Shown here: one piece after another, positions 1-1,843 of the stretch
Layout of the letters: every line of letters begins with the position of its first letter
Position numbering within the stretch: the stretch's first letter is position 1
Assembly: GCA_903883965.1 (NCBI GenBank)
Contig: CAISCU010000028.1
Span: forward strand, 1-51,017
From: an uncultured Bacteroidota bacterium
Lineage (GTDB): Bacteria > Bacteroidota > Bacteroidia > UKL13-3
Direction: 5' to 3'
Length of the DNA stretch: 51,017 nucleotides
Made by a program: the position numbers and the translations under genes
The notes under the pieces: model-generated
Seen by the model: the letters and a program-made list of their open reading frames with translations, nothing else
What the model was told of the DNA's origin: nothing
Databases searched by the model: none

Positions 1-1653
1 TAATTTCCAAACAATATTTGTTGGATATAAGCCAAAGATACAAATTGAAAGCAAATCACAACCAGAGATTAAGAACATTTGCAATTCAAGACGTTGTTGG
101 ATATAAGCCAAAGATACAAATTGAAAGCAAATCACAACCAAGACTTTGACAGCATCGGAACTCCGAAAGTTGTTGGATATAAGCCAAAGATACAAATTGA
201 AAGCAAATCACAACTGCTAACTCGTTTCTGTAACTTAAAACATAGTTGTTGGATATAAGCCAAAGATACAAATTGAAAGCAAATCACAACTCACTTGTTG
301 TAGCTCTATGAAGTCCTTTAGTTGTTGGATATAAGCCAAAGATACAAATTGAAAGCAAATCACAACTAAGTTAGTAAGTGGTTACTTTCATTTATCGTTG
401 TTGGATATAAGCCAAAGATACAAATTGAAAGCAAATCACAACGAAGGTATCAATACCTACGAAAATTGTTGTGTTGTTGGATATAAGCCAAAGATACAAA
501 TTGAAAGCAAATCACAACAGTATCATCTTCCATCATTAACCTTGCATGTTGTTGGATATAAGCCAAAGATACAAATTGAAAGCAAATCACAACAAAGAGT
601 TAATTGAGAAAACGGAATTTGAAGTTGTTGGATATAAGCCAAAGATACAAATTGAAAGCAAATCACAACTGCAGAATAATGGCAATTGGGACATAATTTG
701 TTGTTGGATATAAGCCAAAGATACAAATTGAAAGCAAATCACAACGGGGATTGACTTTAAATGTCCTACAAGCCTGTTGTTGGATATAAGCCAAAGATAC
801 AAATTGAAAGCAAATCACAACCAGCCATACCTCCTTGTATTTGGTCATCACGTTGTTGGATATAAGCCAAAGATACAAATTGAAAGCAAATCACAACAAC
901 CTATTACTGCCTTCGCCTTAATAGAGTGTTGTTGGATATAAGCCAAAGATACAAATTGAAAGCAAATCACAACCCATAATCAAGTTTTCTAAGTTCTGCA
1001 AGGTTGTTGGATATAAGCCAAAGATACAAATTGAAAGCAAATCACAACCTGACAGCTATTATACTACTGACTTATTAGTTGTTGGATATAAGCCAAAGAT
1101 ACAAATTGAAAGCAAATCACAACGAGGCACTCAACTTAACTATGCTGGGTTTGGTTGTTGGATATAAGCCAAAGATACAAATTGAAAGCAAATCACAACT
1201 GAATCTGGTGAAGAACATTTCTTTGATTGTTGTTGGATATAAGCCAAAGATACAAATTGAAAGCAAATCACAACAGCAGCGCTTTTAACGCTATTCCACG
1301 CTTTGTTGTTGGATATAAGCCAAAGATACAAATTGAAAGCAAATCACAACGGAGCAGCAGTTCCATAATTTGAGCTTGGAGTTGTTGGATATAAGCCAAA
1401 GATACAAATTGAAAGCAAATCACAACTAGCGTCTCAGTATATCTATTGAGTTAATGTTGTTGGATATAAGCCAAAGATACAAATTGAAAGCAAATCACAA
1501 CTTAATGTCTGAAAAATACGCCAAAAAATCAGTTGTTGGATATAAGCCAAAGATACAAATTGAAAGCAAATCACAACGCCGCTTTGTCGCATCAACTCCA
1601 ACCAATCGTTGTTGGATATAAGCCAAAGATACAAATTGAAAGCAAATCATTAA
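1..1653 (-). CRISPR. Type II-C-like CRISPR array, end of array
   Basis: There are twenty-two 46-nt repeats starting at 17, 93, 169, 245, 321, 397, 473, 548, 624, 700, 776, 852, 928, 1003, 1078, 1154, 1229, 1305, 1381, 1456, 1532 and 1608. They are separated by 21 different spacers of 29 or 30 nt, and 1-16 is a partial spacer, so the array continues to the left. Read on the minus strand the repeat begins GTTGTGATTTGC and ends CCAACAAC. A 46-nt repeat beginning this way with 30-nt spacers matches Bacteroidota type II-C (Cas9) arrays, where crRNA reads in this orientation. The internal repeats look identical. The copy at 17 differs at its first plus-strand base (T for G). The copy at 1608 is degenerate in its last four plus-strand bases (TTAA for CAAC), marking it as the old terminal repeat. 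No cas9, cas1, cas2 or tracrRNA is in the window. Subtype is inferred from the repeat alone. Confidence 0.93.
1548..1576 (-). promoter_or_regulatory. Repeat-embedded promoter (representative copy)
   Basis: On the minus strand each repeat contains TTG at repeat positions 2-4 and TATCTTTG at positions 23-30, 18 nt apart. This is an exact match to the Bacteroidota -7 box TAnnTTTG with a TTG -33 box. Transcription would start about 6-8 nt later, in the last ten bases of the repeat, and run straight into the spacer. The copy given lies in the repeat at 1532. The same arrangement recurs in every repeat except the degenerate one at 1608, which has lost the -33 TTG but keeps the -7 box. Repeat-internal crRNA promoters are known from Neisseria and Campylobacter type II-C arrays. 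Activity here is inferred. Confidence 0.6.
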
Positions 1654-1655
1654 GC

Positions 1656-1691
1656 ACAAAAAAAGGGAGCAGATTTACACCTACTCCCTTT
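1656..1691 (-). terminator. Intrinsic terminator of tRNA-His
   Basis: On the minus strand an 8-bp stem (AAAGGGAG at 1691-1684 pairing with CTCCCTTT at 1669-1662) is followed by a T run ending at about 1658. The hairpin lies 10 nt after the tRNA-His 3' end and stops only a few bases before the degenerate CRISPR repeat at 1653. The plus-strand reading also has a short T run (1693-1699), so it may stop transcription from either side. Confidence 0.75.
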
Positions 1692-1700
1692 CTGTTTTTG

Positions 1701-1775
1701 GGTGGAATATGGGGCTCGAACCCACGACCTCCTGAACCACAATCAGGCGCTCTAACCAACTGAGCTAAAACCACC
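1701..1775 (-). tRNA. tRNA-His (anticodon GTG)
   Basis: The minus strand folds as a tRNA. The D-arm begins TAGCTCAGTTGG. The anticodon stem CCTGA/TCAGG encloses loop TTGTGGT with anticodon GTG, and the T-loop is TTCGAGC. A leading G facing the discriminator C fits the extra G-1 of tRNA-His. CCA is not encoded. The acceptor stem is odd: GTGG pairs with CCAC, but the next two positions put UU opposite UU (nominally 5-68 and 6-67), so the lower stem has two U-U mismatches. All other arms are intact. A matching promoter upstream and a terminator downstream argue for a working gene. Confidence 0.9.
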
Positions 1776-1812: not shown

Positions 1813-1843
1813 CAAATGTAGAACAGGAATCAGATATTACAAA
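1813..1843 (-). promoter_or_regulatory. Promoter of tRNA-His
   Basis: On the minus strand TTTG (1843-1840) is followed after 19 nt by TACATTTG (1820-1813). This is an exact match to the Bacteroidota consensus TTTG-N19-TAnnTTTG. The predicted start is near 1807, leaving a 5' leader of about 30 nt before the tRNA. Confidence 0.7.

Follow-up and report, generated by a model that had tools for sequence, protein, structure and literature searches.

The stretch of DNA analysed here (the window, 51,017 nucleotides from an uncultured Bacteroidota bacterium) forms the first part of contig C28 in its source genome and opens inside a type II-C CRISPR array, whose spacers are 29–30 nt long and which runs on past the contig end at the left side of the window. 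The other part of the CRISPR locus lies on a second contig, C22 (locus L002), in this genome, where cas9, cas1 and cas2, with a Cas1 of type II, make up the gene set of a type II-C system (profile scores: TIGR01865, 516 bits; cas1_NMENI, 301 bits; cas2, 69 bits), accompanied by a tracrRNA and by 8 further, equally oriented repeats that run to the contig end (Table 1). The genome contained a single Cas9 match, and no more cas-like ORFs, csn2 and cas4 included, were found between the tracrRNA and the array on this 7.45-kb contig, which ends within the array. As the repeat is identical on C28 and C22, we infer that both sets belong to one array, although the two parts have no spacer in common and the join is absent from the assembly. 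The spacer TTATCATGGCTTAAATGTTTTGTTGTAATA occurs twice in L002 (G000:C22; 7021–7060 and 7401–7434, the second copy at the contig end), either because the spacer was duplicated or through an artefact of the assembly graph, one that also split the array over two contigs. Beside the tracrRNA and cas9, a Fic/Doc-like ORF (L002 369–928, minus strand; PF02661, 49 bits), only 95 aa long from its TTG start, is preceded by a small ORF, and the two are a possible toxin-antitoxin pair; ParDE has been reported within the Flavobacterium columnare II-C locus.

Table 1. Features of the array, its upstream flank and the associated cas locus (window positions unless L002 is named).
Feature	Position	Strand	Remarks
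Type II-C CRISPR array	17..1653	- (crRNA strand)	22 repeats x 46 nt
TTG-N18-TATCTTTG	33..61	-	repeat 17-62
TTG-N18-TATCTTTG	109..137	-	repeat 93-138
TTG-N18-TATCTTTG	185..213	-	repeat 169-214
TTG-N18-TATCTTTG	261..289	-	repeat 245-290
TTG-N18-TATCTTTG	337..365	-	repeat 321-366
TTG-N18-TATCTTTG	413..441	-	repeat 397-442
TTG-N18-TATCTTTG	489..517	-	repeat 473-518
TTG-N18-TATCTTTG	564..592	-	repeat 548-593
TTG-N18-TATCTTTG	640..668	-	repeat 624-669
TTG-N18-TATCTTTG	716..744	-	repeat 700-745
TTG-N18-TATCTTTG	792..820	-	repeat 776-821
TTG-N18-TATCTTTG	868..896	-	repeat 852-897
TTG-N18-TATCTTTG	944..972	-	repeat 928-973
TTG-N18-TATCTTTG	1019..1047	-	repeat 1003-1048
TTG-N18-TATCTTTG	1094..1122	-	repeat 1078-1123
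TTG-N18-TATCTTTG	1170..1198	-	repeat 1154-1199
TTG-N18-TATCTTTG	1245..1273	-	repeat 1229-1274
TTG-N18-TATCTTTG	1321..1349	-	repeat 1305-1350
TTG-N18-TATCTTTG	1397..1425	-	repeat 1381-1426
TTG-N18-TATCTTTG	1472..1500	-	repeat 1456-1501
TTG-N18-TATCTTTG	1548..1576	-	repeat 1532-1577
Leader-distal terminal repeat (array 5' end, crRNA strand)	1608..1653	-	keeps TATCTTTG at 1624-1631; 5' GTTG lost, reads TTAATG...
Intrinsic terminator directly upstream of array (crRNA strand)	1660..1693	-	fold -21.8 kcal/mol, z -6.5
tRNA-His gene	1700..1774	-	
TTG-N19-TACATTTG upstream of tRNA-His	1813..1842	-	
cas9	L002 1851-5519		
cas1	L002 5516-6451		
cas2	L002, ends 6797		
tracrRNA	L002, upstream of cas9	-	

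An earlier note on this DNA, made from the letters alone, had taken minus to be the crRNA strand, and the tracrRNA anti-repeat upstream of cas9 on C22 bears this out: ACAAATTGAAGCAAATCACAA (minus strand) is complementary to nt 2–23 of the window repeat in its minus-strand reading (consensus GTTGTGATTTGCTTTCAATTTGTATCTTTGGCTTATATCCAACAAC), and is followed by an AATAAGG continuation and then by a terminator hairpin. The tracrRNA thus pairs with the 5' part of the minus-strand repeat, and the crRNAs therefore derive from the minus strand, with transcription running towards cas2. The one degenerate repeat is the one farthest from cas2, so that the oldest end of the array lies 5' with respect to crRNA transcription, a layout shared with other II-C arrays.

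On the crRNA strand, the segment TATCTTTG, an exact match to the -7 box TAnnTTTG of Bacteroidota promoters, occupies nt 23–30 in 22/22 window repeats, and in 21/22 a TTG at nt 2–4 precedes it by 18 nt, giving exact TTG-N18-TAnnTTTG in those 21. The layout that the earlier note described was thus confirmed as seen, but its wording, that every repeat carries a complete promoter, was slightly too strong, as the -7 box is present throughout while the terminal repeat is without the TTG. The pair matched 23 times in the whole window (2.7 expected), of which 21 are copies of one repeat and count as one observation only, so that chance was properly assessed through a survey of related loci. The TTG had also been counted as promoter evidence, and this part was not supported: its spacing is right for a -33 element, yet it lies within the invariant GTTGT end with which type II repeats of other phyla begin as well, and is therefore not diagnostic. 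A -33 box as a separate element is not supported.

The survey looked for Cas9 in 64 genomes of the window's order, 395 of its class (Bacteroidia, a placement based on promoter code, tracrRNA and repeat type), 395 of its phylum and 398 of Pseudomonadota; 160 regions were taken, arrays were called and repeats oriented, and about 100 Cas9 loci were surveyed, yielding 66 distinct repeats from Bacteroidia, 27 from other classes of the phylum and 11 from Pseudomonadota. Repeats were oriented by their conserved tracr-pairing end, checked by the anti-repeat and the tracr continuation at 54 Bacteroidia loci. An alternative rule, based on the repeat half that matches the anti-repeat, was rejected: it conflicted with the conserved end in 40/113 loci, since an anti-repeat may pair along the full length of the repeat and hits also fell on stray copies from arrays.

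Exact TAnnTTTG was found in 22/53 distinct Bacteroidia repeats of 44–48 nt, against 0.98 in shuffled sequences (maximum 4 in 1000 shuffles), and in none of these 53 on the opposite strand; dinucleotide shuffles gave a similar result (22/54 vs 1.6). The position was nearly fixed (nt 23 in 17 repeats, nt 24 in 4 and nt 17 in 1), and with up to one mismatch the box was present in 47/53 (18 expected). The excess was smaller after clustering, although still significant (7/31 clusters vs 0.87, maximum 5), and at that level TAnnTTTG was not the single commonest gapped pattern, as overlapping patterns of the same segment ranked alongside it. The scan proposed in the earlier note therefore returned a strand-specific box, fixed in position in many related repeats, but an exact box in 22/53 rather than in most.

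Several loci departed from the usual arrangement. The box at L037, L039 and L044 appears as GATCTTTG, shifted to nt 30–38, with TTTG at nt 8–11 some 19 nt before it, so that the promoter spacing is preserved in a second register. Five loci (L069, L103, L105, L108 and L166) have 36-nt repeats within the long-repeat Cas9 clade and retain the box-like segment at nt 23–31, so its position is independent of repeat length. The repeats at L115 are 57 nt long, far above the usual 46–47 (21 and 4 copies), and the II-C array at L145 is very large (at least 160 repeats).

An unseeded EM motif was trained on 52 nonredundant tracrRNA upstream regions, with the repeats kept out of training. It converged on TA[TC][AT]TTTG (T.94 A.85 n n T.90 T.98 T.89 G.79), coinciding with the published Bacteroidota -7 box (consensus quoted in PMC7366714). 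Scored with this matrix, the long Bacteroidia repeats reached 6.91 bits on the crRNA strand, compared with -0.45 on the opposite strand and 1.86 when shuffled (z 17.7), and Pseudomonadota repeats -3.6; 35/54 long Bacteroidia repeats reached at least 5 bits, about one third scoring lower. The gap between TTG and box was 18–20 nt in 18/30 tracrRNA promoters and 18–19 nt in 20/22 repeats. On this evidence from sequence, each repeat quite probably contains a promoter for the host primary sigma factor that would fire into the next spacer.

The surroundings of the arrays bear on the same point. In the window, about 7 nt separate the first repeat from the closed stem of the upstream terminator, which probably stops the tRNA-His transcript, and an external promoter therefore does not fit between them. 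On the leader side (L002 6795–6850), the sequence folds into a hairpin on either strand, the one on the crRNA strand having a T run. Both ends of the array thus look insulated, and its 5' end has no space for an external promoter. Across the survey, TTG-N17-20-TAnnTTTG occurred in 0/40 upstream flanks on the crRNA strand and in 0/45 leader flanks reading inward (150 nt each; this spelling only), and TAnnTTTG alone in 1/40 and 1/45, which is below chance. In this spelling, then, an external promoter is absent, both beside the window array with its terminator and from the surveyed flanks. Scanning for terminators in general upstream of arrays gave hits at 24/50 Bacteroidia loci (16 expected), too weak an excess to extend the window terminator generally. 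The TTG-N19-TACATTTG before tRNA-His is likely an example of the ordinary host promoter spelling; upstream of the window's own genes TAnnTTTG was not enriched (2 on the same strand vs 3 on the opposite), in 1.8 kb of naive upstream regions, which is too little sequence for a verdict.

These flanks count against a conventional array, in which one outside promoter would serve all spacers, RNase III and the tracrRNA would do all the processing and the box would be inherited but silent. Such a scheme agrees with the R. anatipestifer report, whose authors predicted leader promoters and 0 in repeats using a fruit-fly promoter tool (PMC5006608), but a strong terminator abuts the window array and the surveyed flanks hold no promoter pair of this spelling; we consider it distinctly unlikely.

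The repeat itself divides at the box. Pairing with the anti-repeat spans nt 2–22, the matched fraction falling from 0.71 at nt 23 to 0.12 at nt 28 (41 loci), and the box begins where tracrRNA pairing stops. In the distal terminal repeats of 49 loci, nt 1–7 were altered in 37–57% and nt 23–30 in at most 4%, and at L085 and L061 everything before the box (TATCTTTG or GATCTTTG) has gone; the repeat on the leader side, unlike the distal one, is intact. With no spacer upstream of it, the pairing half of a terminal repeat is useless. Conservation of the box for crRNA-tracrRNA pairing or for guide recognition by Cas9 would suit a segment directly adjoining the paired one; given that pairing collapses across the box and that the terminal repeat drops its unused pairing half and keeps the box, this explanation is highly improbable.

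The retained part of terminal repeats, however, reaches beyond the box to the repeat end, and Pseudomonadota terminal repeats behave alike, so retention of the inward half may be general to CRISPR arrays and have other reasons. One such reason could be spacer integration, with nt 23–30 conserved as an internal anchor for Cas1-Cas2 and the likeness to a -7 box incidental. Consistent with an anchor, the segment is more uniform in repeats, where nn is almost always TC, than in tracrRNA promoters, where nn varies, a uniformity that speaks for common ancestry or an additional constraint; moreover, some repeats keep TCTTTG without TA, and in the variants GTTCTTTG and GATCTTTG CTTTG is kept while T or TA is lost. 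Part of the conservation may accordingly reflect ancestry or a second role such as integration. As the whole explanation an anchor is unlikely, as it does not account for the same motif upstream of tracrRNAs, which are not integrated, for the TTG spacing of 18–20 nt common to repeats and tracrRNA promoters, or for flanks free of this promoter pair. The proposal of a repeat-embedded promoter is partly supported, by the strand-specific, fixed -7 box, the match to the tracrRNA motif and the lack of such a promoter in the flanks, with the TTG uninformative.

Under the promoter interpretation the repeat would be a two-part element. Nucleotides 1–22 would be the handle by which the crRNA of the preceding spacer pairs with tracrRNA, and nt 23–46 would contain the -7 box (TATCTTTG, nt 23–30) and a start region, forming a promoter recognised by the host primary sigma factor (of the sigma-ABfr type). 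Since the box ends at nt 30, the usual distance for a -7 box would put the transcription start at about nt 34–37, reading into the next spacer. Transcription of the array would thus begin at many internal points and, with no leader promoter, run towards cas2 and the leader, the side on which new spacers are expected to be added. Each stored spacer would probably be switched on by its adjoining repeat and not by one master promoter, here and in many relatives.

Comparison across phyla gave a different spelling of what looks like one design for different sigma factors. All 11 distinct Pseudomonadota II-C repeats end in a sigma70-like TAnnnT (0.5 expected), and among the 36-nt repeats of Bacteroidota 15/29 have [TG]AnnTT as their ending in this place, each with a TTG 19 nt upstream (0.7 expected); one set of 36-nt Bacteroidia repeats, for example, has GATATT at nt 31–36 with TTG 19 nt upstream. 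Over nt 31–36 the Pseudomonadota form is TAnn[AC]T, and [TG]AnnTT was seen in 15/16 Bacteroidota repeats with the box there. On a first Cas9 tree, Bacteroidota whose repeats end in TAGATT (L140, L141) lie near Pseudomonadota with TACAAT ends (L189, L191), in a weakly resolved branch. Four rows on very long branches (L142, L144, L157 and L182, where the longest ORF is probably not Cas9) and a duplicate were then left out; on the resulting tree the mid-repeat box required at least 20 changes and is therefore labile. The earlier note had offered convergent evolution or an ancestral trait re-spelled; re-spelling gains support from the nt 31–36 endings, but the tree holds just 2–4 independent host contrasts, of which nearly all agree with the prediction and none contradicts it, so the idea cannot reach statistical significance.

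We therefore advance only tentatively, and with the balance of our judgement somewhat against it, the view that the per-spacer promoter of II-C repeats is older than the split of the phyla, its box having been rewritten in place for each host sigma factor (TAnn[AC]T to TAnnTT, nt 31–36) and moved to nt 23–30 in the lengthened Bacteroidia repeats; repeats would then be a record of the host promoter code, and loci would jump between phyla only by re-spelling. An assembly of the window's class contains, on a 6.4-kb contig (L049, G148:C28), a II-C locus of Pseudomonadota type whose repeats end in sigma70-style TACAAT, together with that assembly's own TATCTTTG array (L097). L049 is either contamination or a very recent transfer, and in the latter case would test the re-spelling idea.

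Per-repeat promoters are already known in type II-C systems, having been shown by dRNA-seq in Campylobacter jejuni (PMC3656092) and reported in Neisseria meningitidis (Zhang et al. 2013, as cited in PMC7038990). Like the window, these have a minimal cas9-cas1-cas2 set, a box in the repeat that reads on the crRNA strand into the next spacer, and no leader promoter found; they differ in that the -10 element lies in the 3' part of the repeat and the start, mapped by dRNA-seq, falls inside the spacer, whereas in the window TAnnTTTG is at nt 23–30 and the predicted start in the last 10–13 nt of the 46-nt repeat. The II-C array of Clostridium cellulolyticum H10 (PMC7038990) is likewise transcribed opposite to the cas genes and has an extended -10 at the repeat end, but the host is clostridial, the spelling is of sigma70 type, it was studied in E. 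coli, and its mature crRNAs have 23–26 nt of spacer. Within the same phylum, repeat promoters have been proposed for F. columnare (eight array reads) and F. psychrophilum from TTG alone, 33–35 bp before the spacer (PMC8092290, PMC10309648); these proposals share with ours repeat-encoded promoters and transcription towards the leader, but name no -7 box in the repeat. Sigma-ABfr promoters of Bacteroidota carry TAnnTTTG at -7 and TTTG at -33 (PMC7366714). The window repeats have the exact -7 consensus, common also to the tracrRNA promoters of the surveyed loci, but unlike an ordinary promoter box theirs sits in a CRISPR repeat and is copied with each new spacer. A literature search on TAnnTTTG, CRISPR and repeat, covering few subscription journals, returned no paper placing a -7 box in a CRISPR repeat. 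What appears new is therefore the -7 box in Bacteroidota repeats, for which the sequence case is stronger than the published TTG proposals.

If the promoter reading is true, per-spacer promoters would be a general property of type II-C systems, beyond Neisseria and Campylobacter, and would explain how spacers are expressed where the array reads towards the leader and not from it. They would also give a reason for the unusual 46–47-nt repeats of Bacteroidia and a rule for orienting Bacteroidota arrays by sequence, and a II-C locus moved across phyla would be predicted to stay silent until its repeats change.
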